Of a DNA stretch of 55,442 nucleotides, positions 16,131 to 53,829 are shown piece after piece (the first letter of the stretch is position 1; the number at the start of each line of letters is the position of its first letter). The position numbers were made by a program, and so were the translations under genes. Source of the stretch: a virus. The notes beneath the pieces were generated by a model. The model was not told the origin of the DNA. It did no database searches and was given only the letters and a program-made list of their open reading frames with translations. The DNA lies in IMG/VR virus record IMGVR_UViG_3300027859_000018, positions 1-55,442 of that record. The stretch is one strand, 5' to 3'.

Positions 16131-16148
16131 AACACGTAATAATAAAAT

Positions 16149-41375: not shown

Positions 41376-42107
41376 TTAAAGTGTTAAATTAATAAAATAT
41401 TGCGAAGGTTCGAAACCTTCAGTTTTGTAGAATAAATCGTAAGCTTCTACTGCTCTTTTAACCTTGTCTTTACCTGACTCATAAAAATCAGGCGAACAAT
41501 CTACAACTGCTATTTGATGAGTATTTTTATCAATAGCAATAAATACAAATTCATAACCAAATAATTTACTATAAATATATGCTTGAGAATCGTAATTCCA
41601 ACGGTACGCAGATCGCTTGAAAGAATTAATATCTGAGGTAGTCTTCAAGTCAATCACAAGTTTATCATCGTGATTTACTATATCAGCTTTACCTTTCCAC
41701 ATTGTTCCTTCAAGCTCTGCAATACCTGGCTTCTCATACTCAACATCAATGCCGCGAATAAGTTCACGACATATATCATTTTTTAATAATTTATCAGTCA
41801 TCAATTCTATCTGGTCAACTTCATGTTGTAATAAACATAGTTCACCACCAGACATTTCTTTATAAGCCTTAGTGTTCCTAGTTGACGAAGGTATTACTCG
41901 GTATTTCTTCAACTTATTTGGTTCAAGTATAGCGGTGTGAAAATATCCGCCAACAAGAAACGCTGGGCTAGGCTTAGATTGTTCTCCAAGCGCTAAAGGG
42001 TTGGTTAGCAAAGTTTTTATGTCGCTATTACTAAGATATTGTTTACCAAAGTCTCCGTAATAGTGCTCATCATTTCTAAGCTTTTCAATAACCTTTTCTT
42101 TTTTCAT
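41376..42107 (-). CDS. PD-(D/E)xK exonuclease, RecE/RecB-nuclease-like
   Basis: A 243-residue protein with the full exonuclease set: His57 (GGYFHTAIL), Asp142 (KGKADIV), Asp153-x-Lys155 (VIDLKTT) and the RecB-type motif Gln175-x3-Tyr179 (DSQAYIY). It would resect double-stranded ends to single strands for the annealing protein encoded just upstream. The start codon lies inside a copy of the repeated 32-bp promoter motif (site A): the ATG is the end of GGATAATG. This makes the mRNA leader nearly absent if transcription starts at that GG. Confidence 0.85.
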   Translation of the reverse strand: MKKEKVIEKLRNDEHYYGDFGKQYLSNSDIKTLLTNPLALGEQSKPSPAFLVGGYFHTAILEPNKLKKYRVIPSSTRNTKAYKEMSGGELCLLQHEVDQIELMTDKLLKNDICRELIRGIDVEYEKPGIAELEGTMWKGKADIVNHDDKLVIDLKTTSDINSFKRSAYRWNYDSQAYIYSKLFGYEFVFIAIDKNTHQIAVVDCSPDFYESGKDKVKRAVEAYDLFYKTEGFEPSQYFINLTL

Positions 42108-42137
42108 TATCCGTATTGGTTCGTATTAGGCTTGTAA
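42106..42137 (-). promoter_or_regulatory. Repeated early-promoter motif, site A
   Basis: A 32-bp copy of TTAC-N8-nACGnn-N7-GGATAAT, read on the minus strand as TTACAAGCCTAA, TACGAA, seven bases, GGATAAT. It abuts and overlaps the exonuclease ATG and lies between it and the ERF gene stop. It would drive the exonuclease, ssb, primase and downstream genes. Confidence 0.75.
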
Positions 42138-42668
42138 TAATTTATCTTCTTGTGCAGAAGTCAAATCATATTTAGCTTTGATAGCTTCTATTTTACCACC
42201 TGCTTTTATATAATCAATTGCTTTTTGAACGTCAGCAAGTTTTTGTTTTGAAACAACTTTACTTACTGATGCCTTACCATGATTATTTGTAGCGTCGCTA
42301 TCTTGTGTATCATCTATTAATAATAGATTGCCTAACGCATATTTCTTAGCATAGCTCGACGCACTACCAAACTGTTGTGGTGTTTGCATACCTTTTTGAT
42401 TAAGGTCTACACCCACTATTGCGACAGCAGATATTTCCATACCTTTTTCATCAATCAACTTTGCAGTTGTTTTAATTATAGGCATAGGGTCAGTAGCAAT
42501 TAATTTTTCATTAATTGTAACCGCAACTCCAATCTCTAATAGATAGGGTTTAATTGCTTCGAGAATGTCTTCGGCACTGCGAAAGTAATATTTGCCGAAT
42601 GAATTAAATCTACTCTTCTTCGATTTAAATTTTGTTTGAATGGTTGCTAACTTCTGGTTTATGGTCAT
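42126..42668 (-). CDS. erf: ERF-family single-strand annealing protein
   Basis: A 180-residue recombinase. The core FGKYYFRSAEDILEAIKPYL, ISAVAIVGVDLNQKGMQTPQQ and the signature FGSASSYAKKYAL followed by LLIDDTQDSDA are those of the ERF superfamily. It anneals complementary single strands and works with the RecE-like nuclease encoded next. The C-terminal part (about residues 130-180) is a small helical tail, KQKLADVQKAIDYIKAGG. The stop lies inside the promoter motif of the following gene. Confidence 0.88.
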   Translation of the reverse strand: MTINQKLATIQTKFKSKKSRFNSFGKYYFRSAEDILEAIKPYLLEIGVAVTINEKLIATDPMPIIKTTAKLIDEKGMEISAVAIVGVDLNQKGMQTPQQFGSASSYAKKYALGNLLLIDDTQDSDATNNHGKASVSKVVSKQKLADVQKAIDYIKAGGKIEAIKAKYDLTSAQEDKLLQA

Positions 42669-42702
42669 AATAATATAATTACATATTTTTAATTAAACTT
42701 AA

Positions 42703-42719
42703 ACGGTTATATTCACCGT
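42703..42719 (-). terminator. Small hairpin between sigma-like and erf genes
   Basis: ACGGT (42703-42707) pairs with ACCGT (42715-42719) around a 7-base loop, within a 54-base gap and flanked by direct AACTTAAA repeats. It is too weak to be a certain terminator; it could be a processing or attenuation site. Confidence 0.3.
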
Positions 42720-42722
42720 AAC

Positions 42723-43487
42723 TTAAAGGTAATCAAGCACTTGCGAGCTATCTACATTGTCTATTAATACTTGTATTGCATCACGTTTTATCTGTGAAAT
42801 ACGTACGTGAGCAGTGTTAACATTAATATCTAATTTAGCCGCAACTTCATTAGCCGAATGCTTATCACAGTCAAGTCCAAAGCTTAACCTAAGCACTTCA
42901 TATTGTTGTATGTTTAAATACTTTTTCATTAACTGTAATAAATAAGCATTTAATAAACCTATATTATATGGTTCTGACTTATCTACAACTTGATAAGCCA
43001 TATTTTCATTTTGATTAGGGTTAGCATCAATACTAGAAAATACACTATTAAAAAACATTGCAACCATTTTTTCATCTTTTGGATTGCGTCTTATTTCATT
43101 TAGCTTATGTTCTGGTATGCGTATGTCGCCTCTGTTAATATCTACGGCTCTACGTATCGCGCCCTTTATTCTTTTTGATATAAATGATTTTAAAGTTTTT
43201 TCTTGGTCATCAGACTTCTTTAATGTGTCTCGGTCTAATTTATTAACAGCAGCACATAATCCTAAATTACCTTCCTGTAATAAATCATTTATACTTAATA
43301 CACCTGACGCTTGGTCTGAGGTGGATTGTTTTCTCGCTAGTGTTTCAACAAGCGGTAAAAAGTTAATAGTTATTTCTTCGTCATTTAAAAATGTATAATC
43401 TCCATCAACTGGTTTTCTAACTTTTTCCAGTTTAGCTTTTACATCTTCTTTATATCTAACGTAGTTAGCTATGTTATACTTTCTCAT
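42723..43487 (-). CDS. Phage RNA polymerase sigma-70-like factor
   Basis: A 254-residue protein. A region-2-like segment spans about residues 60-125 (INDLLQEGNLGLCAAVNKLD, then LKSFISKRIKGAIRRAVD and GDIRIPEHKLNEI), where region 2 would contact the -10 element and core polymerase. A region-4-like helix-turn-helix follows near residues 195-240 (YEVLRLSFGLDCDKHSANE and AAKLDINVNTAHVRISQIKR). It would redirect host RNA polymerase to phage promoters, and it is one candidate reader of the nine-copy motif. It overlaps the upstream HTH gene by 14 bases. Confidence 0.85.
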   Translation of the reverse strand: MRKYNIANYVRYKEDVKAKLEKVRKPVDGDYTFLNDEEITINFLPLVETLARKQSTSDQASGVLSINDLLQEGNLGLCAAVNKLDRDTLKKSDDQEKTLKSFISKRIKGAIRRAVDINRGDIRIPEHKLNEIRRNPKDEKMVAMFFNSVFSSIDANPNQNENMAYQVVDKSEPYNIGLLNAYLLQLMKKYLNIQQYEVLRLSFGLDCDKHSANEVAAKLDINVNTAHVRISQIKRDAIQVLIDNVDSSQVLDYL

Positions 43488-44094
43488 TTAGTATTTGTTT
43501 TTCTTTTTTTAAATCTACACACATATTTCTATGCACTGTTCGTGTAGTGCAGTTCAATGCTAAAGCAATATTACTTATAGTAATCTTATTACCCCAATTA
43601 TTTATATCAAGCATTGCACCGTAAATAGCTTCTTTAGTAATTTTTTTTCCTCTTCCTATTAATTTGCCTACAATACTTAGCTTTTCACTTAAAGTTAAAT
43701 GCCATGATTTAGGTTTAAATATAACTTTACGTATTCTATTACGAGGTGGAGTATCACCAACACCTAATACTTCTTTTATCATGCTGTGCAACACTTTACT
43801 TTTAATAAAGAAAGTTACAAAGCCATTATCTTTATCAGCTAAGAAATGACATATAGCTGCAAATTCTACGTCTAGTAAATTATCATTTAAATATCTTAAA
43901 ACTAACATGTGCCATTTAAGAGATTTATATGTAGTAATCTTTGCTTTACTTCTAAATAAACTATAACATTCATATGTACCTTCTGCGTAGTAATCATATA
44001 GATCAGTACTTTCGGTTGGCACATCTGTGATAGGATTTCTAGCATATATAACTCTTCTATCATGCAGCCACTTTAAATTTCTTTCTTGTGACAT
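43474..44094 (-). CDS. Putative DNA-binding protein with C-terminal HTH
   Basis: A 206-residue basic protein. The last 50 residues contain ITISNIALALNCTTRTVHRN, a clear helix-turn-helix, preceded by KKITKEAIYGAMLDINNWG. The N-terminal half is rich in aromatic and basic residues and has no known domain. Direct coupling with the sigma-like gene suggests a transcription regulator, possibly a co-factor of that sigma or a control of early genes. Confidence 0.6.
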   Translation of the reverse strand: MSQERNLKWLHDRRVIYARNPITDVPTESTDLYDYYAEGTYECYSLFRSKAKITTYKSLKWHMLVLRYLNDNLLDVEFAAICHFLADKDNGFVTFFIKSKVLHSMIKEVLGVGDTPPRNRIRKVIFKPKSWHLTLSEKLSIVGKLIGRGKKITKEAIYGAMLDINNWGNKITISNIALALNCTTRTVHRNMCVDLKKEKQILNEKV

Positions 44095-44111
44095 TTGCTT
44101 ATTACTAAATA

Positions 44112-44222
44112 TTATTTTTTAGCTTTTGTCGCTCTTCGCTTTCTAAGCTTATTTATTTTATCTCTTAAACCAAACAGGTTCACCTGTATTTGATGCTTTA
44201 TATGTTTTCTTATTTTGCTCAT
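44112..44222 (-). CDS. Tiny basic protein, 36 residues
   Basis: ATG at 44222, TAA at 44112. The sequence starts MSKIRKHIKHQIQVNLFG and ends in a Lys/Arg-rich tail (RKRRATKAKK). It starts one base after the upstream stop, so it fits the operon. The function is unknown; nucleic-acid binding is likely from charge. Confidence 0.5.
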   Translation of the reverse strand: MSKIRKHIKHQIQVNLFGLRDKINKLRKRRATKAKK

Positions 44223-44223
44223 A

Positions 44224-44439
44224 TTAAGGTCCTTCTATTATCATATCAATTTCTGTGCCGGAATAACAATCTTTTTCAGGCCAATTCAGCCATCTATTAG
44301 TTATTTCAATATGTTCATCAGTCGGTAAGCCTACCGCCCATATCATAGTAGCTATAGAGCTAGTGCACGCTACGGTAGCCAGAATAATACCGGTCCATAA
44401 CATCTGTCGGAACTGTTTTAAAAGTGTATGGTATTTCAT
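44224..44439 (-). CDS. Small single-pass membrane protein, 71 residues
   Basis: A transmembrane helix WTGIILATVACTSSIATMIW follows a basic amphipathic start (MKYHTLLKQFRQ); the C-terminal 35 residues are acidic and end MIIEGP. The frame is open further upstream to 44499, but the ATG at 44439 gives a normal membrane-protein start. Even so it overlaps the preceding gene by 80 bases, so the ATG at 44403 (59 residues) is possible. Confidence 0.5.
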   Translation of the reverse strand: MKYHTLLKQFRQMLWTGIILATVACTSSIATMIWAVGLPTDEHIEITNRWLNWPEKDCYSGTEIDMIIEGP

Positions 44440-44875
44440 TTTTATTACAAATTTTTCGTTTATCAATAATATAATATCGCCAATAACCGTGTATAGCATT
44501 AGACCGTTTGAACTCGTCTGGCATACACTGCGGCGGTTGTTTATATTCTATAGTTGGCATACCCTCAGGGTGCCTCATCAATGGCTCAGCACATTTAGTA
44601 ATTGTTAAATGTATTTTGCCATATCGTTTAGTATATTCATTACCTAAAGCTAACATATGTTCGTATAGCCAATAGTAATGGTGTGTATTTTCTCTAACCC
44701 AAATACTTGACGGATGATTTAAATGTGCAGTCTTATAAGGGACATTTTCATTTCCATAATATCTATGCGCAGTACAAAGCATCTGAGCTGATTCTAAAAT
44801 CATTTTTACTTTATGCTTATCGTATACATAGCTAGCTGCTAAGTGTGGGTCTTCGTGTAAATAAAATATATTCAT
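44360..44875 (-). CDS. Conserved phage protein with DKHxxKMxLESAQML motif
   Basis: A 171-residue protein. Its N-terminus is MNIFYLHEDPHLAASYVYD, then DKHKVKMILESAQMLCTAHR, then NHPSSIWVRENTHHYYWLYEH. This string of conserved residues is shared by many uncharacterised phage proteins. The chain is helical and rich in His, Tyr and Trp, and could be a nucleic-acid enzyme, but the function is not established. The ATGA overlap with the upstream 29-residue protein shows tight coupling. Confidence 0.7.
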   Translation of the reverse strand: MNIFYLHEDPHLAASYVYDKHKVKMILESAQMLCTAHRYYGNENVPYKTAHLNHPSSIWVRENTHHYYWLYEHMLALGNEYTKRYGKIHLTITKCAEPLMRHPEGMPTIEYKQPPQCMPDEFKRSNAIHGYWRYYIIDKRKICNKNEIPYTFKTVPTDVMDRYYSGYRSVH

Positions 44876-44961
44876 TCTTCGTTAATTAAATAAGTTGCCA
44901 TTAATAACATAATTAATGCAAATACTGCTAATACTATTGTAGCTTCTAATTCTACACTCAT
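44872..44961 (-). CDS. 29-residue single-transmembrane micro-protein
   Basis: ATG at 44961, TGA at 44872. Residues 5-24 are a continuous hydrophobic helix (ELEATIVLAVFALIMLLMAT) with acidic ends. It overlaps the genes on both sides by four bases (ATGA), which strongly supports translation. Such early micro-proteins often target host membrane complexes; no specific role can be assigned. Confidence 0.6.
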   Translation of the reverse strand: MSVELEATIVLAVFALIMLLMATYLINEE

Positions 44962-45239
44962 AATTTCTTTTTTAAATAATCAATTCTTTTTTTAATTACT
45001 CCAGCATGTTCATACTCTTCAGTTTCTTCATACTTTTTCATTACTATTTCTAATTGCTTTATTTCATCTCTTATTACATCTGTAGATGAAGTAAAAGTTA
45101 AATGTGAAAATCTATCTTCTTTAACTTCCTTTTGTCGCAAGACATCAGCTCCGTAAGTAGCTGTTTCAGGATTAATAAATTCGTCATATAAATCTTCTTT
45201 TATACGATTATACAACGCTTGATATTCTTCTTCACTCAT
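44958..45239 (-). CDS. Protein with a UVR-like C-terminal motif
   Basis: A 93-residue helical protein. The last 35 residues (QLEIVMKKYEETEEYEHAG, then VIKKRIDYLKKKL) match the helical-hairpin UVR motif of UvrB/UvrC, where it mediates protein contacts. The frame extends to an ATG at 45254, but that ATG sits inside promoter site B, so ATG 45239 (nine bases after GGATAAT) is taken as the start. It might interfere with or imitate excision-repair contacts. Confidence 0.6.
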   Translation of the reverse strand: MSEEEYQALYNRIKEDLYDEFINPETATYGADVLRQKEVKEDRFSHLTFTSSTDVIRDEIKQLEIVMKKYEETEEYEHAGVIKKRIDYLKKKL

Positions 45240-45245
45240 ATTTAT

Positions 45246-45277
45246 ATTATCCATATTGATTCGTATTTAGCTTGTAA
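45246..45277 (-). promoter_or_regulatory. Repeated early-promoter motif, site B
   Basis: A 32-bp copy: TTACAAGCTAAA, TACGAA, seven bases, GGATAAT on the minus strand. It overlaps the end of the upstream gene's coding region and lies directly before the UVR-motif gene at 44958-45239. Confidence 0.78.
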
Positions 45278-45737
45278 AATTAGGGTCTTCACATTTCATT
45301 AATCTAGTTTTACCATTAGCAAAGTCTGTATAATCCATATCTTCTGTGTACTTTTCAAGTATTTGCTCGGGTGTCATAACAAATACACACTGCTCTGTAT
45401 ATCTGTCGTGACAAGCAATCATAGTTTTATCTCTATCACCAGCCCATATAATATATGTATATTGATGGTCTATATTGTCTACGTCTGCATATAAATAGCA
45501 ACTGTCGTAGTAATGGTCGTGCACTAGCTTAGCCGCCATTGCTGAACCATCTTGTCTGTTATTTACTTTTAACCAGTTTGCTAATTGTACTGCTTGCCAT
45601 TCCGGATAACCATCATGGTGTAAATACATATGCACATAACTGTGTTTAGTAACGTCTTCAGGTGATATAGATAATCCTTTGCCTTCACCTCTTGCATGTC
45701 GTCTATCAACGACCATTGTTAAGTTTCTTGTTGCCAT
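45267..45737 (-). CDS. Conserved early protein with HxxHDGYPEW-type motif
   Basis: A 156-residue protein. MATRNLTMVVDRRHARGEG is followed by YVHMYLHHDGYPEWQAVQLA. This pattern, a short basic strand then a 'DGYP' loop, recurs in phage proteins of unknown function. The chain continues with conserved aromatic strands (QYTYIIWAGDRD, QCVFVMTPEQIL). An ATG 30 bases upstream overlaps the previous gene; ATG 45737 is preferred. Its end lies inside promoter site B. Confidence 0.6.
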   Translation of the reverse strand: MATRNLTMVVDRRHARGEGKGLSISPEDVTKHSYVHMYLHHDGYPEWQAVQLANWLKVNNRQDGSAMAAKLVHDHYYDSCYLYADVDNIDHQYTYIIWAGDRDKTMIACHDRYTEQCVFVMTPEQILEKYTEDMDYTDFANGKTRLMKCEDPNFTS

Positions 45738-45738
45738 A

Positions 45739-46191
45739 TTATTCTTCGTATTCGTGACCGTCGTCAACTAATTCATCAATTTTATCTTGATGTAAATCGT
45801 CATATACATCAGACCACCATTGTTCTAATTCAAGGGTGAAGTCATGTTCCATATCATCCCATAGATGAGGTTCAATCCATATATTTCCACCCTGTATCAT
45901 ATGTTCAACAGCTTGCTCAGACCATGCTTGATAGTCTTCATAATAATAACCGTCTTGACATACGTAAGGTTTTTCATCTTGAGTACACCAGTATATATCG
46001 TAACCATCACATGTTGATTCACTATATATTTTTAAGTCATGCTTGTTATCAAGCCAATCACTGGTGTTATCCATATGACCACCATATTCTGAGCCAATAT
46101 ATTCTATAATCCAGTTGGCGTCTGGTTCTTGCATAATGCCGTCTTCGTTTAGTTTTTCAACGACATCATCGTAATTTAATTTTTCACTCAT
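45739..46191 (-). CDS. Acidic hypothetical protein, 150 residues
   Basis: The protein is very acidic, with many Asp, Glu, Trp and Tyr residues (QWWSDVYDDLHQDKIDELVDD at the C-terminus). The N-terminus MSEKLNYDDVVEKLNEDG forms a helix. The overall charge and early position recall anti-restriction or DNA-mimic proteins of phages, but that is speculation. The start overlaps the previous stop (ATGA). Confidence 0.55.
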   Translation of the reverse strand: MSEKLNYDDVVEKLNEDGIMQEPDANWIIEYIGSEYGGHMDNTSDWLDNKHDLKIYSESTCDGYDIYWCTQDEKPYVCQDGYYYEDYQAWSEQAVEHMIQGGNIWIEPHLWDDMEHDFTLELEQWWSDVYDDLHQDKIDELVDDGHEYEE

Positions 46192-46427
46192 AATTTATAA
46201 TTTAATTTAATTCCGTCTTTTTCGATTAAGCTTAATAAATATTTGTAAAGCTCACGCTCTTGTCTACAACCAGCTAACACTTGCTCGTGTAACTCTCTGG
46301 GTATGAAGGGGTTATAGCTTTCATTTTTTAAGTCTAGTTCTTGTTCAGCAATTTTTCTGTCAAGACCTTTAATCGTTGCCCACATTTTTGTGTGTGCTTT
46401 TTCTTTTATTATATCACTTGTTTTCAT
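46188..46427 (-). CDS. Helical early protein, 79 residues
   Basis: The frame reaches back to ATG 46448, but that codon falls inside promoter site C, so the ATG at 46427 (MKTSDIIKEKAHTK) is the likely start. The chain is almost wholly helical and charged (TIKGLDRKIAEQELDLKNES), ending IEKDGIKLNYKL. No family is recognised. Confidence 0.55.
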   Translation of the reverse strand: MKTSDIIKEKAHTKMWATIKGLDRKIAEQELDLKNESYNPFIPRELHEQVLAGCRQERELYKYLLSLIEKDGIKLNYKL

Positions 46428-46434
46428 CAATTCT

Positions 46435-46466
46435 ATTATCCGTTCCATATCGTTTTTAGTCTGTAA
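46435..46466 (-). promoter_or_regulatory. Repeated early-promoter motif, site C
   Basis: A copy with slightly changed centre: TTACAGACTAAA, AACGAT, seven bases, GGATAAT. The 8- and 7-base spacings are unchanged. It lies between the 53-residue gene and the helical 79-residue gene, overlapping the end of the former. Confidence 0.72.
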
Positions 46467-46617
46467 TAATTTCAGGATTATCAGTTGCCATCCATTCTAT
46501 ATTACTAAGTGAATGACCTTGCGAAGAAATGTAATCTTCTTCGTTCATACTTATACTCCTCATGTCGTATCTATAGACTTGGCCGTCTATAAAATCTAAT
46601 ACAAATATATATTTCAT
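46456..46617 (-). CDS. Hypothetical 53-residue early protein
   Basis: The frame is open to 46689, but the extra N-terminus is a translation of the tRNA gene, so the ATG at 46617 (MKYIFVLDFIDGQVYRYDM) is used. It is a small beta-rich acidic protein ending MATDNPEIITD. It lies 14 bases after the tRNA, so it probably shares its transcript. The function is unknown. Confidence 0.6.
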   Translation of the reverse strand: MKYIFVLDFIDGQVYRYDMRSISMNEEDYISSQGHSLSNIEWMATDNPEIITD

Positions 46618-46631
46618 AATTTTAATTTTAG

Positions 46632-46703
<72 letters not shown>

Positions 46704-46709
46704 ATATTT

Positions 46710-46768
46710 AGACCCTGCGGAATTTTACCGCGACCACGTTTGAACCACGTTGCTAAACTTACTGGTCT
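46710..46768 (-). other. tRNA-like or degenerate structured element
   Basis: A 59-nt stretch just before the tRNA. It closes with AGACC/GGTCT ends, contains a T-arm-like hairpin GCGG-TAAAATT-CCGC, and a middle arm around GTTCAAA. It is too short and lacks a proper D arm to be a normal tRNA. It may be a decayed tRNA or part of a structured leader RNA. Base pairing is real by inspection; identity is not. Confidence 0.3.
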
Positions 46769-46793
46769 GTGTAACAAACAAACACAATATTAT

Positions 46794-46996
46794 GAGTGAG
46801 GCGGACAGGACTGGAATGTTAGAGATGCCCCGCGCCTAGCGGGAACGACTTACACTCTTTTATCTGTTTATCCTGTCTTTCTTACCGTCATCGAGCCTCT
46901 CTTTGCAACCCCGTCGGGTACTACACGCCAACGACCACGCATTTGTGGGTACGACGTCGAGCCTTTAATCTGGTCTTCCAACCTTAAACCTCACTC
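46794..46996 (-). ncRNA. Candidate structured non-coding RNA upstream of the tRNA
   Basis: About 200 nt, richer in G+C than the neighbours and without a convincing reading frame. The ends pair: 46794-46801 (GAGTGAGG) with 46989-46996 (CCTCACTC). Inside are 46804-46810 with 46871-46877 (GACAGGA/TCCTGTC), 46829-46833 with 46839-46843 (CCCGC/GCGGG), 46908-46911 with 46916-46919, and 46935-46938 with 46945-46948. Two copies of TCGAGCCT (46891, 46957) lie in the loops. It lies downstream of promoter site D and before the tRNA. The whole gap 46704-47103 contains no gene. Confidence 0.45.
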
Positions 46997-47102
46997 CGCA
47001 ATTCGAGTCGCTCATAGCTTCACGTAACACATCCCACACTCTTTCAGTGGTTCGAAACATACTTCGCTAGCGGTGCGCTTCTATTGCAATTCGTTCATAT
47101 AT

Positions 47103-47134
47103 ATTATCCGTTATACTTCGTATTTAGTTTGTGA
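47103..47134 (-). promoter_or_regulatory. Repeated early-promoter motif, site D
   Basis: Copy: TCACAAACTAAA, TACGAA, seven bases, GGATAAT. It lies in the last codons of the small gene 47104-47298, with no protein gene immediately after it; the next features on the strand are the candidate RNA and the tRNA. This copy would therefore drive RNA expression. Confidence 0.78.
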
Positions 47135-47298
47135 ACAACTCGCTGGCGGATATGATGTATAGCATCGGTGAAATCGTCGCCGTCTAGCTTATCTACAATC
47201 GTATCATCTACCGCCCATGCAATATTGTGGTCTATTAGCTCATCTAATACTTCTACCACACAATCTGCGATATGTTCTAACTCTTTCATTTTACTCAT
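47104..47298 (-). CDS. Hypothetical 64-residue acidic protein
   Basis: A helical acidic chain MSKMKELEHIADCVVEVLD, then AWAVDDTIVDKLDGDDFTD and IRQRVVHKLNTKYNG. The C-terminal codons also make up promoter site D. The start overlaps the previous stop by 8 bases. No function is known. Confidence 0.55.
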   Translation of the reverse strand: MSKMKELEHIADCVVEVLDELIDHNIAWAVDDTIVDKLDGDDFTDAIHHIRQRVVHKLNTKYNG

Positions 47299-47518
47299 CT
47301 TTATTTGTGTATATTGGTTTATTTATTTTTCTTACTATAATTTCCATAGTCCATGACCCATCTTCTTGTATACCAAGTATTTCAAATTTACCTGTATTCA
47401 TTACTTTAGTAATTTTACCTCCAATATCCGATCGAAACGGTATAGTTACAATTTCGCATTCTTCAGTTATTGGCTTTACTAAATCATTTGGGCTTCTCAT
47501 AAATGTAAATGTTCTCAT
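47291..47518 (-). CDS. Hypothetical 75-residue protein, SH3-like beta barrel possible
   Basis: MRTFTFMRSPNDLVKPITE is followed by strands IVTIPFRSDIGG, KITKVMNTGKFEILGI and SWTMEIIVRKINKP, an arrangement like a small SH3-type barrel. An upstream extension exists in frame to 47629, but it would run deep into the previous gene; ATG 47518 forms an ATGA overlap with it. The function is unknown. Confidence 0.55.
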   Translation of the reverse strand: MRTFTFMRSPNDLVKPITEECEIVTIPFRSDIGGKITKVMNTGKFEILGIQEDGSWTMEIIVRKINKPIYTNKDE

Positions 47519-47736
47519 AATGTTTCGTATTCTTTTAATTCGTCTTGTATTGTTAATTTTAATTCTTTCGCAACATAGTTTATATGTTTCGTAGTAGTAA
47601 CAGAAGAGGACATACCGTGTACTCTCCATTTTACTTTATATAATTTATCACCGTCTATTTCGGCTACTAAAGTATCATAGGAATATACATTATTACCTAT
47701 TACTTTTAAATTCATTTTATATCTTTCTAATCTCAT
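47515..47736 (-). CDS. Small conserved phage protein with VTTTKHINYVAKEL motif
   Basis: A 73-residue protein. The core VIGNNVYSYDTLVAEIDGD, a strand pair KLYKVKWRVHG and the motif SSVTTTKHINYVAKELKL recur in short proteins of diverse phages and may bind nucleic acid. A second ATG at 47715 is an alternative start. There is an ATGA overlap with the next gene. Confidence 0.6.
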   Translation of the reverse strand: MRLERYKMNLKVIGNNVYSYDTLVAEIDGDKLYKVKWRVHGMSSSVTTTKHINYVAKELKLTIQDELKEYETL

Positions 47737-47746
47737 AGTATATAGT

Positions 47747-47917
47747 TTAATAGCAAATGTCGCACGGTATATGTACGTTGTTTACTTGTCCAGTTATTAA
47801 TAAAAATAGCATATAACCTATTCCTGTAAATGCCATTGTTCCTAGCGAGATAATAAATGCATGAATCATTACGTTACCTATTTTTGCTAATGTTAAGTGT
47901 TTAAATATTTGTTTCAT
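47747..47917 (-). CDS. Single-pass membrane micro-protein, 56 residues (paralogue 1)
   Basis: ATG at 47917, TAA at 47747. The start MKQIFKHLTLAKIGNVMIH is followed by the hydrophobic helix AFIISLGTMAFTGIGYMLFL and a short tail with two Cys (IPCDICY). The protein at 50450-50620 has the same length and pattern, so the two look like paralogues. It overlaps the upstream gene by 17 bases. Confidence 0.6.
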   Translation of the reverse strand: MKQIFKHLTLAKIGNVMIHAFIISLGTMAFTGIGYMLFLLITGQVNNVHIPCDICY

Positions 47918-48104
47918 CTTTTTCTATTCTTTTTACCAATCCTCTGATTGCGTTAATAAAATCGTCTGCGTTATCTTCTTTTCTTCTTTGATAATTGCTA
48001 TAGTTTAATGTACCGTTAGCTCTCATCTCGGTGAACACAGCTTCACCTTGTTCGTATTGGGTTAAAGCTTGCGCTAGTTCCAGTATTATATTTATTTTTG
48101 TCAT
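47901..48104 (-). CDS. Hypothetical 67-residue protein
   Basis: Mostly helical: MTKINIILELAQALTQYEQ, ending RGLVKRIEKDETNI. The middle is charged (SNYQRRKEDNADDFINAI). No family is recognised. The upstream gene overlaps its start by 4 bases (ATGA). Confidence 0.55.
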   Translation of the reverse strand: MTKINIILELAQALTQYEQGEAVFTEMRANGTLNYSNYQRRKEDNADDFINAIRGLVKRIEKDETNI

Positions 48105-48319
48105 CTTATATTAAATGCTTTATGTGCGTTATATTTAGCGTATTCAGCAACACCCATTCGGAATTGCCATTCTCTTCTTCTATAGTTGATGTCAGTGCAC
48201 CACTTTTTCCAAGCTATAGTTCTGGTTGATTCACCATACTTTTTCTCAAACTCAATTACTTGATTAAGTTTGTCAGCAATTTTTTCTGCTGGATAATCTT
48301 TATATTCTTTATTCATCAT
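48101..48319 (-). CDS. Hypothetical 72-residue basic protein
   Basis: The first ATG of the frame is at 48319; the longer frame would begin at a TTG. The chain is basic and aromatic (RRREWQFRMGVAEYAKYNA) with helical segments KIADKLNQVIEFEKK and RTIAWKKWCTDINYR. It overlaps the upstream zinc-knuckle gene by 11 bases. No function is known. Confidence 0.55.
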   Translation of the reverse strand: MMNKEYKDYPAEKIADKLNQVIEFEKKYGESTRTIAWKKWCTDINYRRREWQFRMGVAEYAKYNAHKAFNIR

Positions 48320-48407
48320 ATTCAAATTCTGTGTGTTCTTTACAATCAGAGCATAGACCTGTGTTATATAGTTCTGTAGCTCCGCAACATTCGCTTACTC
48401 TATTCAT
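48309..48407 (-). CDS. 32-residue zinc-knuckle micro-protein
   Basis: ATG at 48407, TAA at 48309. Four cysteines in the pattern CC...CxxC (MNRVSECCGATELYNTGLC, then SDCKEH), followed by an acidic tail. This 'CCGA...GLCSDCKEH' pattern is found in many tiny phage proteins and resembles a minimal zinc ribbon. It probably binds zinc; the partner is unknown. Confidence 0.65.
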   Translation of the reverse strand: MNRVSECCGATELYNTGLCSDCKEHTEFEYDE

Positions 48408-48630
48408 CTTTTAATATATTAGTTCCATAAAGCATGGAGTTAATACCTAAGTCAGCTTTATTAATATTAGTAAATAATATTAAATCTTTTATAGTTGAAA
48501 TCTTTAATTCAGACCATAATACTTTAGACATTAGTGTGTATTTGATTGTACTTACACTGTCGTATTGTTTAGAGCTTTTATCTAGTTGCTCTTTGATTGT
48601 TGGTTTTAATTGTTCGTAAATGTTTGTCAT
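48400..48630 (-). CDS. Hypothetical 76-residue protein
   Basis: The protein starts MTNIYEQLKPTIKEQLDKSS, and the remainder is helical with few charged patches (SKVLWSELKISTIKDLILF). Promoter site E ends about 17 bases before its ATG. The stop overlaps the start of the zinc-knuckle gene. No family is recognised. Confidence 0.55.
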   Translation of the reverse strand: MTNIYEQLKPTIKEQLDKSSKQYDSVSTIKYTLMSKVLWSELKISTIKDLILFTNINKADLGINSMLYGTNILKDE

Positions 48631-48647
48631 AATTATTATTTTATTTT

Positions 48648-48679
48648 ATTATCCGTTTTAATTCGTATTTAACACGTAA
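48648..48679 (-). promoter_or_regulatory. Repeated early-promoter motif, site E
   Basis: Copy: TTACGTGTTAAA, TACGAA, seven bases, GGATAAT, followed by an A/T-only leader to ATG 48630. It overlaps the last codons of the gene 48658-48843. Confidence 0.78.
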
Positions 48680-48843
48680 AATCGTTTTGTAAATACTTTC
48701 TTTTGAGGTAGCTTATACCTTCTATTCCCCATACCTTTACACTCACCGTATATTTTAAGTACTTCAGTATGTCTGAATCTTCTTTGTTTCTTTTTGTCTT
48801 CTACATATTGCAGAAGCTCTCTCATATTAGTTGGTGCCTTCAT
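48658..48843 (-). CDS. Hypothetical 61-residue basic protein
   Basis: MKAPTNMRELLQYVEDKKKQ is followed by RRFRHTEVLKIYGECKG and a basic C-terminus (KKVFTKRFYVLNTN). The ending residues are encoded inside promoter site E. It overlaps the upstream 45-residue gene by 17 bases. Confidence 0.55.
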   Translation of the reverse strand: MKAPTNMRELLQYVEDKKKQRRFRHTEVLKIYGECKGMGNRRYKLPQKKVFTKRFYVLNTN

Positions 48844-48964
48844 AAAATTCTATCATTTGGTTACACTTTTCAAGTGAATCTATGCTCACCCATTCGTCTA
48901 TATCTTCAACGTATATCATACCGTTGACTACATCGTTTACTAGTTTATATTTATCGTATCTCAT
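48827..48964 (-). CDS. Hypothetical 45-residue acidic protein
   Basis: ATG at 48964, TAA at 48827. MRYDKYKLVNDVVNGMIYV is followed by EDIDEWVSIDSLEKCNQM and a short acidic end. No family is recognised. Packing and overlap with its neighbours fit the early operon style. Confidence 0.5.
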   Translation of the reverse strand: MRYDKYKLVNDVVNGMIYVEDIDEWVSIDSLEKCNQMIEFYEGTN

Positions 48965-48984
48965 AATTATATTTTTTTTATTAG

Positions 48985-49207
48985 TTAAAATGGTAAAATA
49001 GTTTTTTCTATATAGGTTAAACCTTTGAATTTAAACCAGTGACTTTTTCCATATTTATATTGGTCAATGCCATCTTCATCTTTTCCAAGGTGAATTTGTT
49101 TAAAGCCGAAGCTAGGTGGCAAAGTGCCTATAAAATAACCTTGGTAAGTTATATTATTTAGTTTGATTTGATTTGAGTTTTTTAAGGATTTTTATAGTGT
49201 TTGTCAT
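48985..49207 (-). pseudogene. Small early gene interrupted by a one-base frame change
   Basis: From ATG 49207 the frame reads MTNTIKILKK and then stops after 17 codons. Moving forward one base at the A6 run (T6 on the plus strand, 49178-49183) opens a convincing protein of 73 residues in total, with GYFIGTLPPSFGFKQIHLG and YGKSHWFKFKGLTYIEKT, ending LPF. The downstream part has no ATG of its own. Either a single-base indel (natural or sequencing) broke the gene, or the frame is restored by slippage. Confidence 0.6.
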
Positions 49208-49223
49208 AACTTTAATTTATTTT

Positions 49224-49255
49224 ATTATCCATTTAGTTTCGTATTTAGTTTGTAA
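49224..49255 (-). promoter_or_regulatory. Repeated early-promoter motif, site F
   Basis: Copy closest to the consensus: TTACAAACTAAA, TACGAA, seven bases, GGATAAT, followed by an A/T-rich leader to ATG 49207. It lies directly after the stop of the 97-residue gene. Confidence 0.8.
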
Positions 49256-49257
49256 TT

Positions 49258-49551
49258 TTATTCAAAGTAATCTTTATAATTTTCAAGTAAGCTTTCCATA
49301 TATTCTTTATCTTCCATTTCTTCACTACTTAGTTGGTGGCCTTTAATAAACTTTACAACTTTTAGTAATTCCTTTAATAACTCTACACTAGTATATTTTA
49401 ATTTTTCGTCAAACCAATCTTGATTTACTATATTTTTATCTAGTACATAGTCAAATATTTTATTTTCATTATTTATATTTTCTTCAGTTCCCCAATACTC
49501 TACATTAGTATGGTTTTTAATTTCTTCTTTTATTAAGTTTATTATTTTCAT
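49258..49551 (-). CDS. Acidic hypothetical protein, 97 residues
   Basis: A helical chain starting MKIINLIKEEIKNHTNVEY with a C-terminal acidic half (EEMEDKEYMESLLENYKDYFE, in part). The high negative charge and early position are like small inhibitors of host enzymes, but no family is known. It lies 4 bases after the upstream 41-residue gene and just before promoter site F. Confidence 0.55.
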   Translation of the reverse strand: MKIINLIKEEIKNHTNVEYWGTEENINNENKIFDYVLDKNIVNQDWFDEKLKYTSVELLKELLKVVKFIKGHQLSSEEMEDKEYMESLLENYKDYFE

Positions 49552-49555
49552 AGTA

Positions 49556-49681
49556 TTATTTATTAATAGTTATTTTCATTTGAAAGGGATTTGGGTATTC
49601 AATTTCTACATTGAAATCTTCGACTTGAGTATTTAAAGTTTCTAAGTCTTTTAATTGTTGAATTAGTTTTTTAAGTGTCAT
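49556..49681 (-). CDS. Hypothetical 41-residue protein
   Basis: ATG at 49681, TAA at 49556. MTLKKLIQQLKDLETLNTQ forms a leucine-rich helix, then VEIEYPNPFQMKITINK forms two strands. It directly follows promoter site G with a 26-base leader after GGATAAT. Confidence 0.55.
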   Translation of the reverse strand: MTLKKLIQQLKDLETLNTQVEDFNVEIEYPNPFQMKITINK

Positions 49682-49706
49682 TTTATTATTTTTTAATTAC
49701 ACTTAT

Positions 49707-49738
49707 ATTATCCAAATATCTTCGTAATTCGTTTGTAA
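49707..49738 (-). promoter_or_regulatory. Repeated early-promoter motif, site G
   Basis: Copy: TTACAAACGAAT, TACGAA, seven bases, GGATAAT. Downstream identity continues as ATAAGTGTAA, shared with site H and mostly with site I, so the initial transcribed region is also conserved. Confidence 0.78.
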
Positions 49739-49741
49739 ATA

Positions 49742-50087
49742 AAAGTATACACTTTGTTTGTATAGTGAAATTTGTTTAATAGTATTATACTTAAACTTGT
49801 AGTGAGTGAAGTAGTTAGTGTGACATTTACTACATAATATAGTATAATAGGTAGCTTTTGTCACTATATTTACCGACTGTCATTACGTCATGTTAATAAA
49901 TATGTATGACAATACGACATACGGTAAGATTTCCGGCGCAGTTTTTGCTATACGCAATGCTATACATTGCTATACACCGAATCCCTCCGGTGCCGAGTGA
50001 TGCTTTCCGCATATCTTGCCTTTGGGATTGGATCTGAGGGGCTGGGATTCCGGCTTACCAATTTAGTGCGTTCCCTCAGGTTAGACC
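49742..50087. other. Non-coding stretch with nested hairpins
   Basis: About 350 bases without a gene. A symmetrical 56-base structure spans 49871-49926: TACCG/CGGTA outside, GTC/GAC, then GTCAT/ATGAC around an A/T loop. Other hairpins are GCAATG (49954-49959) with CATTGC (49965-49970), and CACCG (49975-49979) with CGGTG (49988-49992). GCTATA occurs three times near 49947-49973. The right half is richer in G+C. It could be a replication origin, a regulatory RNA or a transcript end; nothing decides between these. Confidence 0.5.
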
Positions 50088-50399
50088 TTACTTCTTTTTA
50101 GCAAGGTCGACTCTTTCAATAACACATTCTCTAGTGTTGCTTGGCATGTCAGTTGACTGAGACCAGTAGCCTCTCTTTAGCCAGCAAGGCATGATGTTTA
50201 ACTTAGGTAGCATTATCTTTAATACTTCGTCGTGGTTATAAGTTATCTTTTGATTCTTATTGTTAGTGAAGGTTATTACTTGACCTCTACCATACCATGA
50301 CTTTCTTACTACAAAGTTCTTTCTTGTTATTGGTGGAAAGATTTCTTTTAATTCTTTCTTACTTAGTTTTGCGATTGCTTCTGTTAATTTAGTATTCAT
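50088..50399 (-). CDS. Hypothetical 103-residue basic protein
   Basis: MNTKLTEAIAKLSKKELKE forms a basic helix. The middle has RKSWYGRGQVITFTNNKNQ and a C-terminal strand pair CVIERVDLAKKK. It is likely globular and basic, with no family recognised. Promoter site H ends about 28 bases before its ATG. Confidence 0.55.
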   Translation of the reverse strand: MNTKLTEAIAKLSKKELKEIFPPITRKNFVVRKSWYGRGQVITFTNNKNQKITYNHDEVLKIMLPKLNIMPCWLKRGYWSQSTDMPSNTRECVIERVDLAKKK

Positions 50400-50427
50400 A
50401 TTATTATTATTTATTTGTTACACTTAT

Positions 50428-50459
50428 ATTATCCAACATACTACGTGTTTCATCCGTAA
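50428..50459 (-). promoter_or_regulatory. Repeated early-promoter motif, site H
   Basis: Copy with changed centre: TTACGGATGAAA, CACGTA, seven bases, GGATAAT, followed by ATAAGTGTAAC as at site G. It includes the stop codon of the 56-residue membrane protein. Confidence 0.72.
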
Positions 50460-50620
50460 ATTCCGAACGTTGCATTATCGATTACACTCGGGTCCATGAT
50501 TATCTTACTGATTATACCGACCAGGCCGATGATTGCTAAACCGGTTAGGCTGACAACCCACGCATGCAGGATTAAACTTATTACTTTATCTAGTGTGATG
50601 TGGTTAAATATTCTTTTCAT
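50450..50620 (-). CDS. Single-pass membrane micro-protein, 56 residues (paralogue 2)
   Basis: ATG at 50620, TGA at 50450. The N-terminus MKRIFNHITLDKVISLILH parallels MKQIFKHLTLAKIGNVMIH of the gene at 47747-47917, and the following helix AWVVSLTGLAIIGLVGIISK is in the same place. The C-terminus differs (DPSVIDNATFGIYG). It is the first gene of the leftward early region, downstream of promoter site I. Confidence 0.6.
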   Translation of the reverse strand: MKRIFNHITLDKVISLILHAWVVSLTGLAIIGLVGIISKIIMDPSVIDNATFGIYG

Positions 50621-50944
50621 TGTATCTTATATTTTATTAGTTACTTACACATATATTATCCAGTAGTGGCCGTGTTACGTACGTAAAAGCCAAAACTTTC
50701 TGGATAAAATCCGCAAAAGCAGGGGTCCCCGGGTCAAACCGAAAAAACTTTACAAACGTAATACACCTGTAAAACGGGGGCATAGCCCATTAGTTCTTTA
50801 TTTGTAACAACTTTTTTACGCGCATCATATAATAAATAATGTTATTATTTATTTATATATATATGACATAAGGTATAATTATATAATAGTAAGTAGCTAG
50901 CGTCACATTATTAAAATATTTGATTTCTAAGTAATAATATTAAT
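50621..50944. promoter_or_regulatory. Divergent control region between leftward and rightward genes
   Basis: There is no gene in about 320 bases. It contains promoter site I on the minus strand, the palindrome TTACGTACGTAA (50675-50686), a G+C-rich block near 50720-50732 (GGGGTCCCC), and on the plus strand TTACAAACGTAATAC followed 11 bases later by GGGGGC (50750-50781), partly like the repeated motif and like T7-type promoters. A small hairpin GGGC-ATA-GCCC follows. Several A/T-rich TATAAT-like words precede the plus-strand ATG at 50945. Confidence 0.55.
50655..50686 (-). promoter_or_regulatory. Repeated early-promoter motif, site I
   Basis: The outermost copy: TTACGTACGTAA, CACGGC, seven bases, GGATAAT, then ATATGTGTAAG. 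Its upstream block is a perfect 12-base palindrome. It would start the whole leftward early transcription unit. Confidence 0.72.
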
Positions 50945-51178
50945 ATGGCACAAAAACTAAGTAAAAGAGCAAAAGCCGCTAAAGCAGCGAGAGATAAGAA
51001 ATATGCAATGAGCGCTGATCGTAAAAAGAAAAAAGCTGAAAACCAAAGAAAAAGGCGTGCGGCTAAGAAAAAAGGTAAGAATCTAAAAGGCAAGGACTAT
51101 GATCACAAGACAGGAAGATTCACATCGATAAAGAAAAACAGAGGTAACCGAGGCAAAGGTACTAAAAAAGAAAAATAA
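50945..51178 (+). CDS. Very basic small protein with KDYDHKTGRFTSIKKNRGN motif
   Basis: A 77-residue protein, nearly half Lys/Arg (KRAKAAKAARDKKYAMSAD at the start). The C-terminal block GKDYDHKTGRFTSIKKNRG, with a GKGTK ending, is a conserved motif of short phage proteins. It is the first gene of the rightward unit. It may bind DNA or RNA; the function is unknown. Confidence 0.65.
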   Translation: MAQKLSKRAKAAKAARDKKYAMSADRKKKKAENQRKRRAAKKKGKNLKGKDYDHKTGRFTSIKKNRGNRGKGTKKEK

Positions 51179-52019: not shown

Positions 52020-53585
52020 ATGGAATTTAATAATCCAAGTGAGATTGTAAAGAATCTATCTTTTGGGATAGATGCAAGAGAAAAAGTGATGGCTGGCGTA
52101 GAAAAATTAACAAATGCTGTTAAGTCTACGCTTGGCGCATCCGGAAAATGCGTTATATATGAAGACGCAATGGGAAGACCGGTGATAACAAAAGACGGTG
52201 TAACGGTAGCTGAATCCGTAGTCTTATATGATCCGGTCGAAAATATGGGTGCAACCTTAATTAAAGAAGCTGCTAAAAATACAGTAAAAGAAGCGGGTGA
52301 TGGTACAACTACAGCAACAGTAATTGCTCATAGTTTATTAACACTAGCTAATAATAAAAAATATGCAGCTACAATAAGACCCATTAAAGAAGGTATTTTA
52401 TCTGCAAAAGATAAAGTAATTAAATATTTAGATAATGCAGCTATCAAAGTTGAAGGTAGCATGTTAGAAAACGTTAGCGCAATTAGTTGCAATAACGATA
52501 AAGCTCTTGGTAAAATAATATCGCAAGCTTATAGTAAAGTAGGAAAAGATGGGGTAGTCCTAATGGAAGAGTCCGAGACCGCAGATACCCATGTTGATTT
52601 TGTCGAAGGCACACAAATTGAGTGCGGACTTAAATCGCCACATTTTATGACAGACAAGGATAAAAGGAAAGCAGTGCTAGATAATCCGTACGTACTGATA
52701 GTATCTTCGCTTATACCTAATATCCGTAAAATACAAAATGTATTGGAGTTTGTTATTAGAAAGAAAAGGAGTTTACTTATAGTTGCGGGCGTTGAACAAC
52801 AACCTATGGCGGCTTTACTTGCTAATAAAGTAAAAGGTAATATAAAAGTAAATATTATAGACCTGCCGGGTTTTGGCCCAACAAAACAAGACACTGTAGA
52901 AGATCTTGCGATATTAACAGGAGCAAAAGTAATAGACGAAGAGTTAGGAGATGATTTAGATTTAATTGATCCAGATGTATTAGGTGAAGTTAAACAAGCT
53001 GTAACTGATGAAAAAAATACAGTTATACAAGTTATAGAAAGAGGTAATGATTTAGAAGAAAGAATTAAATCTGTAGAAAAGAAAATTAAAAAAGAAAAAA
53101 ATCCTTACTTAAAAAAGAAAATACAACAAAGATTAGCAATATTAAACGGAGAAGTTGCTATTATTAAAGTTGGTGCAGACTCTAAAGTTGAAATGAAAGA
53201 AAAGAAAGATAGGGTCGAAGATGCAATATATGCAACAAAAGCTGCATTACAAGAAGGTATAGTGCCAGGAGGTGGTGTTGCTTTACTAGATGCTTCATAT
53301 GCTATCATTCCTGAAAATGACGGCGAGGCTGTTTTGCTAGAAGCTATCAAAGCACCATATGCAACTATAATTGATAATGCTGCATTAGCACATTATGAAT
53401 CAGGAAAAATTGGTATAGGTATTGATGTTGTAGCTAATCAGCAAGTAAATATGATAGATGCTGGAATTATAGATCCAGTACTTGTAACTAAAACAGCTTT
53501 AAAAAATGCAGTTAGTGTTGTTAATACAATATTTTCTGCAGATTGTGTAATTAATAATGTAAGAGTTCAAAATGAAAGCAATTAA
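52020..53585 (+). CDS. groEL: Phage chaperonin GroEL (Hsp60)
   Basis: A 521-residue Cpn60. ATP-binding elements are clear: TLGASGKCVIYED with VITKDGVTVAESV near residues 37-65, and GDGTTTATVIAHSLL near 87-101. The apical and intermediate domains follow, and VPGGGVALL marks the return of the equatorial domain. The C-terminus ends RVQNESN, without the Gly-Gly-Met tail. It would refold phage proteins, such as capsid, together with the overlapping GroES gene. The gene order groEL-groES is the reverse of the bacterial operon. A part of the gene (about 52540-52780) has more G+C-rich codons than the rest. Confidence 0.95.
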   Translation: MEFNNPSEIVKNLSFGIDAREKVMAGVEKLTNAVKSTLGASGKCVIYEDAMGRPVITKDGVTVAESVVLYDPVENMGATLIKEAAKNTVKEAGDGTTTATVIAHSLLTLANNKKYAATIRPIKEGILSAKDKVIKYLDNAAIKVEGSMLENVSAISCNNDKALGKIISQAYSKVGKDGVVLMEESETADTHVDFVEGTQIECGLKSPHFMTDKDKRKAVLDNPYVLIVSSLIPNIRKIQNVLEFVIRKKRSLLIVAGVEQQPMAALLANKVKGNIKVNIIDLPGFGPTKQDTVEDLAILTGAKVIDEELGDDLDLIDPDVLGEVKQAVTDEKNTVIQVIERGNDLEERIKSVEKKIKKEKNPYLKKKIQQRLAILNGEVAIIKVGADSKVEMKEKKDRVEDAIYATKAALQEGIVPGGGVALLDASYAIIPENDGEAVLLEAIKAPYATIIDNAALAHYESGKIGIGIDVVANQQVNMIDAGIIDPVLVTKTALKNAVSVVNTIFSADCVINNVRVQNESN

Positions 53586-53829
53586 TTACTTTGTTGTTAT
53601 AGAAAAAATAAAAGAAGCGCCGAAGAAAGTAGGTGGCTTAGAGCTTACCGAAGATCAAAATAAAGAACTTAGGTATTTAAAAGCAAAAGTTATTTCTGCC
53701 GGTTCATTAGCAGAAGGTGTAAAAGATGGAGATATAATACATTATGATAAACATGCTGGTCATGGAATTGATTGGAAAGATAAAATGTATTATGTAATAT
53801 CTATTCGAGATGTTGTTTTAGTTGAATGA
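53572..53829 (+). CDS. groES: Phage co-chaperonin GroES
   Basis: An 85-residue Cpn10. MKAINYFVVIEKIKEAPKK opens the barrel. KKVGGLELTEDQNKELRYL corresponds to the mobile loop, although it is shorter than in E. coli. KAKVISAGSLAEGVKDGDI and YVISIRDVVLVE are the typical last strands. It overlaps groEL by 14 bases, so the two subunits are translationally coupled. Confidence 0.88.
   Translation: MKAINYFVVIEKIKEAPKKVGGLELTEDQNKELRYLKAKVISAGSLAEGVKDGDIIHYDKHAGHGIDWKDKMYYVISIRDVVLVE

Follow-up and report, generated by a model that had tools for sequence, protein, structure and literature searches.

A candidate promoter class for a phage-encoded sigma-70-family protein in a lineage of largely uncultivated phages

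Introduction

The middle promoters of phage T4 join a MotA box, read by a small phage DNA-binding protein, to the -10 element of sigma-70. Phage sigma factors with private promoters are also already known, from phiEco32 and the phiEco32-like phage 7-11: sigma gp36 of the former, which lacks region 4, serves middle and late genes through promoters of the form tAATGTAtA, and sigma gp47 of the latter serves late promoters of the form GTAAtg-16-aCTA, with starts 6–9 base pairs (bp) from the element (PMC8948821). The present analysis concerns the 55,442-base linear IMG/VR phage record IMGVR_UViG_3300027859_000018 (positions 1 to 55,442; this entire stretch is hereafter the window) and, within it, a promoter-like motif that occurs nine times in the leftward gene block and recurs, always with the same geometry, in related contigs. 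Judged from sequence, the motif is probably the promoter class of a host RNA polymerase modified by the phage, i.e., of a holoenzyme formed with a sigma-70-family protein that the phage itself encodes.

As in the gp47 system of 7-11, a phage sigma factor is here predicted to send the host core polymerase to a two-part phage promoter; unlike that system, with its late genes and short elements, the promoters of the window belong to an early/middle-type block and have an 18-bp upstream block, a G at -12 and many predicted leaderless starts. The gp36 system of phiEco32 likewise pairs a phage sigma with its own -10-like element, which there stands as a single element, whereas here it follows a long upstream block. 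With T4 the locus shares the succession of an upstream element and a -10 element, together with a candidate DNA-binding protein, in this case one with a helix-turn-helix (HTH); T4 retains the host sigma, whereas here a phage sigma is encoded, the upstream block is longer and its spacing is fixed. Likeness to the crAss-like phages phi14:2 and phi-crAss001 lies in the (here likely) Bacteroidota hosts, the crAss-like muzzle and the one-strand early operon, but the giant virion RNA polymerase of such phages (PMC8375218) was not found in this one. New, in comparison with these systems, are the sigma lineage, the long and fixed upstream block, the pairing of a G at -12 with corresponding changes in the sigma residues, the placement in an early block, where one site precedes the regulator genes, and the large proportion of starts predicted to be leaderless. 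A literature search taking in few subscription journals found no description of the motif.

The motif in the window

The window is divided into structural genes, which run rightward, and a leftward block of small genes together with recombination, replication and nucleotide genes; all nine sites fall within the first 8.6 kb of the latter (Table 1). A first-pass annotation of the same DNA had listed these nine minus-strand sites as sharing one spacing, and they indeed match TTAC-N8-NACGNN-N7-GGATAAT exactly and at constant spacing, with ACG and GGATAAT shared by every site; TTAC is present in eight, the site at 47103 having TCAC instead. Its figure of 32 bp for the extent of the motif proved too short, the conserved sequence comprising 18 bp upstream (TTACAAACTAAATACGAA), the -10 block and about seven further bases. 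A scoring matrix built from 438 sites on other contigs, with those of the window held out, bears out the specificity of the pattern: the nine sites score 24.3–48.7 bits and nothing else in the window is recovered, the next-best place on the minus strand scoring -2.7 bits and the best on the plus strand 1.0 bits, so that no tenth site exists on either strand by this matrix. Across 200 dinucleotide shuffles of the whole window the maximum was 13.5 bits and the median -1.0.

Two other statements of the annotation stand in part. It had placed eight sites directly before a gene start; an open reading frame (ORF) begins 0–28 nucleotides (nt) past the predicted RNA start at six of the nine, and the sites at 47103, 49224 and 42106 differ. 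It had also confined the motif to one strand, which is correct for the window and for two relatives read almost whole (in G019, a 68.6-kb relative, and G041 the copies are limited to one strand and one region), but five relatives add one opposite-strand copy at the divergent junction. In these (L171, L172, L182, L184 and L208) the copy is a full motif, in several cases followed by G+C-rich sequence; at the divergent junction of the window, TTACAAACGTAATACACC (50750-50767, plus strand) is an upstream block that lies opposite to the nine sites in strand and lacks a GATAAT.

Distribution and variation across the phage family

Sites were gathered from 79 stretches, i.e., 78 IMG/VR contig regions and the window, and 67 of these hold a total of 466 sites with the family consensus (A/T)TTACAAACTAAATACGAA-N6-TGGATAATATAAAT-R. 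Scanning IMG/VR with a 19-base core returned at least 117 stretches with exact core matches, and a motif-blind search with the sigma protein of the window led to 38 loci, most of which hold several copies of the motif. The copies at these loci lie on the sense strand of the sigma gene, mostly on its upstream side within 10 kb.

The 32-bp geometry is constant across the family, while the sequence varies coherently within each genome. Thus, contig L035 has TTTATAAAATAAATACGA...TGGATAAT, L012 has ACAAGCCTAACACGAA...TTGATATT, L046 has CACAATTTAAATAATA... ending in GGATAAT or AGATAAT, and L039 has TCACCnATTAAATAATTT-N7-AGATAAT. The first G of GGATAAT differs freely between genomes, whereas the purine at motif position 39 does not. 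Such concerted drift, genome by genome, would be expected of a reader encoded by the phage; under a host factor, the sequence should rather have stayed the same.

By terminase, portal and muzzle genes the window stands near the Flavobacterium elemo phages (terminase identity 45%) and the Manatee Spring phage MW202828 (61%), with Cellulophaga phages such as phi38:1 as more distant kin. The motif was not found in MW202828, elemoF, phi38:1 or phi18:3. MW202828, a sister phage without the sigma gene, has another regulatory element in comparable positions, the palindrome GTGTCGTTAACGACAC, of which there are 11 copies or more, most of them immediately ahead of genes of its early block (MW202828.1 43000-60850, region L166; e.g., at 1541-1578, 2596-2633 and 4653-4690 of that region). 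Relatives of the sigma gene occur on contigs binned with metagenome-assembled genomes (MAGs) of Saprospiraceae, Sphingobacteriales and Flavobacteriaceae, bin assignments that can err, and the cultured relatives of the window phage infect Flavobacteriia; a Bacteroidota host is therefore likely, albeit not proven, and the motif-bearing phages form a large, mostly marine group that probably infects Bacteroidota. Sigma-gene contigs were also binned in Aliivibrio and Ilumatobacteraceae MAGs (L209-L212), probably as misplaced phage contigs.

Promoter character and predicted RNA starts

With GATAAT counted as -12 to -7, the position +1 is that of motif position 39. Among 452 distinct sites, a purine (A or G) occupies +1 in 99%, T is found at -1 in 72% and G there almost never, while within the hexamer -12 is G in about 100%, -11 is A in 100% and -7 is T in 98%. 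The A of the first ATG lies exactly at +1 in 102 sites, about 22%, as against three sites at an offset of +1 and none at -1, and these 102 are spread over 26 protein clusters; leaderless mRNAs are therefore implied. Further peaks in the distance to the ATG occur at 2–3, 10–12 and 21–23 nt. In the window itself, site 45246 is predicted to be leaderless and 46435 to have a leader of 1 nt, with four others at 11–28 nt.

These figures may be set beside the probable host background. Leaders in Bacteroides have a mode of 23 nt, only 3.7% being shorter than 10 nt (PMC7366714), and in Flavobacterium psychrophilum the median is 24 nt and 5.5% are leaderless (PMC9723704). The 21–23 nt peak agrees with these 23–24 nt leaders, whereas the share of ATGs at +1 contrasts with the 3.7–5.5% of leaderless or very short leaders in Bacteroidota. 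Moreover, the Bacteroidota sigma-A reads TAnnTTTG at -12 to -5 (PMC9723704), an element that is lacking in the consensus GATAATATAAAT. The first-pass annotation was thus right to set the motif apart from the Bacteroidota promoter, and equally from the standard sigma-70 arrangement TTGACA-17-TATAAT, for the TTACAA of the upstream block stops some 20 bp short of GATAAT, and the base at -12 is G. In its base pattern the -10 half of the motif is sigma-70-like, with G at -12. The proposal of a dedicated phage promoter is supported by the -10-like GATAAT, the purine start, the ATGs set upon it, the one-strand placement before small early-type genes, the coherent drift and the presence of a sigma gene in most motif-bearing contigs. 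As regards its timing, left as early or middle, a delayed-early or middle class appears likelier than an immediate-early one because the host sigma probably cannot read the motif.

A conserved host-type promoter was sought at the head of the early region, where the only TAnnTTTG match in non-coding DNA (Table 1) is not clearly conserved in relatives. The search for a late-gene promoter class gave just a loose GTAATAATA-ATG likeness at two starts, with GTAATAATA a few bases 5' of the ATG of the first rightward gene (50880-50945, plus strand) and of one structural gene (16133-16149, plus strand); these are possibly leaderless late promoters. In L015 and L023, GATAAT lies about 6 nt before the ATG of the first rightward gene.

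The sigma-70-family protein and its partner

Region 2 of the sigma protein is evident from profile matches (Table 1), and a second aligned domain corresponds to SigA region 4, weak when taken alone (11–12 bits), with the whole chain matching the sigma-70 fold. Pfam Sigma70_r2 falls below its cutoff with the single sigma sequence of the window, and no relative was found by tblastn in the 50,697 phage records of INPHARED (E 1e-5). The gene is present in most of the motif-bearing contigs searched (37 of 50 records, four of which are sister phages), and the inspected motif contigs without it end short of its expected place. Nine sister genomes long enough to judge (W01-W04, G067, G071, G072, G077 and G083) have neither sigma nor motif, and in a Sphingobacteriales MAG the motif matches cluster on the sigma-bearing contig, with just two three-mismatch matches elsewhere. 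The association is strong as a clade pattern and may reflect a single gain or loss.

The base at -12 is specified in the sigma-70 of E. coli by Q437 and T440 (PMC2613000), and the residues that do so are conserved across phyla (PMC8407463). In the alignment with SigA, the invariant G109 and R112 of the phage sigma fall on these two positions; their change, along with G rather than T at -12, is the most specific link between gene and motif. As the -10 block diverges, so does sigma region 2 (partial r of 0.29; p 0.027, uncorrected, 24 tests), but not region 4.

The HTH protein, whose gene overlaps that of sigma, matches Pfam HTH_11 in 56 of its 58 relatives (E up to 0.1), and a fold search gave no PDB match for it. 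Its gene adjoins sigma in every relative where both are testable; among the sister genomes there is a single marginal match, in W02. The 18-bp upstream block spans -38 to -21, and its consensus holds TACAAA and, at a distance of 11 bp or roughly one turn of the helix, TACGAA. Since the block is longer than region 4 normally reads and contains this spaced pair, a second reader is plausible. In keeping with such shared reading, distances in the block correlate, albeit weakly and with uncorrected p values, with sigma 4.2 and the HTH C-terminus, the C-terminal domain of the HTH protein having the highest partial correlation (0.19, p 0.04).

Proposed mechanism

In the mechanism favored here, the host core RNA polymerase would take up the phage sigma protein, region 2 of which would read GATAAT, with RNA beginning at the purine seven bases on, and the upstream block would be read by region 4, probably jointly with the HTH protein. 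A first small dose of sigma might come from a host-type promoter, from read-through or from the virion; sigma would then turn on, as a delayed-early/middle class, the small takeover and recombination genes of the leftward block, whose messages would in many cases have little or no leader. One promoter of the class, at 45246, precedes both regulator genes, so that sigma should boost its own production. A more elaborate version, which may be entertained tentatively, is one of split recognition, with the overlapping, co-encoded sigma (through altered -12 contacts) and HTH protein (at the -25 region) forming an obligate phage holoenzyme that starts RNA on AUG, the gene class being largely leaderless.

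Several observations weigh against the reading of the motif as promoters of a phage sigma-holoenzyme. The association of sigma and motif is essentially one clade event, and sigma and HTH protein are inseparable as readers because they co-occur wherever both can be tested. Two tryptophans beside the -11/-12 contact in sigma-70 are replaced by Lys-Arg in the phage protein, and the upstream block exceeds the usual reach of region 4. The partial Mantel signals are weak, with p values uncorrected across the 24 tests; and when residue-level covariation with the motif bases was computed for sigma, HTH and four control proteins, columns of the control primase scored as high, so that sigma is not singled out. 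The model leaves the initial synthesis of sigma unaccounted for. Finally, motif 9 and the exonuclease start codon overlap, so that the RNA start predicted there lies 8 nt inside that gene, and the same overlap recurs at its counterparts in relatives; the exonuclease may be translated from an upstream message, with the promoter at 42106 serving the genes beyond.

Alternative explanations

The HTH protein might act alone, as an activator that binds the 18-bp block and brings the host polymerase, carrying the host sigma, to a weak -10, much as MotA does in T4 and with no part for the phage sigma. The direct repeat within the block, the adjacency and co-occurrence of the HTH and sigma genes and the top partial correlation of the HTH C-terminus are all compatible with such an activator, which is nonetheless unlikely: the TAnnTTTG of the host sigma-A (PMC9723704) is missing while a near-perfect GATAAT is kept, and the -12 residues of the phage sigma have changed in step with the -12 base.

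Quite unlikely is a phage or virion RNA polymerase, either of the single-subunit T7/N4 type or the crAss-like giant virion enzyme, for which the GG of GGATAAT would be the first transcribed bases. PF00940 has matches in none of 34 genomes (the control set likewise giving none), no large ORF with a plausible DxDGD motif occurs in the window, G041 or G019, and a 2150-aa (amino acid) virion protein is without a polymerase match. Such enzymes do typically use long, highly conserved promoters, a starting dose in the virion would settle the problem of first expression, the muzzle protein is crAss-like, and a GG start at 42106 would leave the exonuclease ATG on the message; against these stand the variable first G, the fixed purine at position 39 and the ATGs located exactly there. 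With the purine and the ATGs where they are, the start signature is that of a sigma promoter, and a T7-like start at GG was rejected.

That the motif is an operator, origin or RNA element at gene starts is very improbable, for although a repeated element ahead of most small genes could be an operator, and a palindrome occupies comparable places in MW202828, the motif is non-palindromic, fixed in strand and in distance to the purine, has a near-perfect -10 element and sets the ATG at +1 in many unrelated genes.

Other features of the locus

By eye, the ATG-started frame after motif 4 (48988-49217, minus strand) seems to stop at about 17 codons, a second frame remaining open; a frame shift within a run of A or a faulty assembly is possibly responsible. 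Between motif 6 and the tRNA-Met lie about 390 nt without a long ORF (46704-47096, minus strand; folding z-score -1.0). Relatives share this stretch in mosaic fashion, L010 at 91% over 210 nt and L031 at 98% over 83 nt; an Rfam search gave only the tRNA and no match in this stretch, a possible phage non-coding RNA. At 49945-49976, in a non-coding stretch, the unit TTGCTATACA stands three times in tandem, and TATAGCA adjoins a promoter motif, usually the first one, in a minority of relatives. GroEL and GroES-like phage genes at 52020-53829 (plus strand) are common to several related Flavobacteriia phages.

Table 1. Positions of the promoter motifs and associated features in the window
Feature	Position	Strand	Predicted RNA start	ATG	Leader	Basis and remarks
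Promoter motif 1	50655..50686	-	50648	50620	28 nt	Exact match, held-out matrix, start geometry
Promoter motif 2	50428..50459	-	50421	50399	22 nt	Exact match, held-out matrix, start geometry
Promoter motif 3	49707..49738	-	49700	49681	19 nt	Exact match, held-out matrix, start geometry
Promoter motif 4	49224..49255	-	49217			Exact match, held-out matrix, start geometry; no ATG-started ORF of at least 20 aa within 90 nt
Promoter motif 5	48648..48679	-	48641	48630	11 nt	Exact match, held-out matrix, start geometry
Promoter motif 6 (TCAC variant)	47103..47134	-	47096			Motif match, start geometry; RNA into non-coding stretch and tRNA-Met
Promoter motif 7	46435..46466	-	46428	46427	1 nt	Exact match, held-out matrix, start geometry
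Promoter motif 8	45246..45277	-	45239	45239	leaderless	Exact match, held-out matrix, start geometry; closest site upstream of HTH and sigma genes
Promoter motif 9	42106..42137	-	42099			Exact match, held-out matrix, start geometry; overlaps exonuclease start codon
First gene after motif 8 (MSEEEYQ...), predicted leaderless	44958..45239	-				Offset 0, as in 32 of 38 members of its family
206-aa protein with C-terminal HTH, proposed partner	43474..44094	-				Pfam HTH_11, synteny; 14-nt overlap with sigma gene
Sigma-70-family protein, 254 aa, proposed motif reader	42723..43487	-				phrog_351 (E 1.4e-15); PDB profile matches SigA/RpoD/FliA (SigA/RpoD up to 5e-11); fold match
PDDEXK-type exonuclease gene	41376..42107	-				phrog_412 (5.4e-37), PF12684; start codon overlaps motif 9
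TACGTTTG, weak candidate host-type first promoter	50753..50760	-				Only TAnnTTTG match in non-coding DNA at the early-region head

Implications

The motif provides a promoter class with exact predicted starts for unknown takeover genes, dozens of them, in a phage lineage that is abundant and largely uncultivated. Given a start signal shared by these genes and a sigma of the phage's own that most likely reads it, the phage would probably run a private transcription programme within its host. The locus may further be seen as a natural sigma/promoter pair in which an altered -12 base goes together with alterations in the two residues known to read that base, and leaderless messages are predicted to be plentiful in hosts that otherwise seldom use them. 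For orthogonal gene expression in Bacteroidota, a promoter and sigma so tightly confined to the phage could also be of use.

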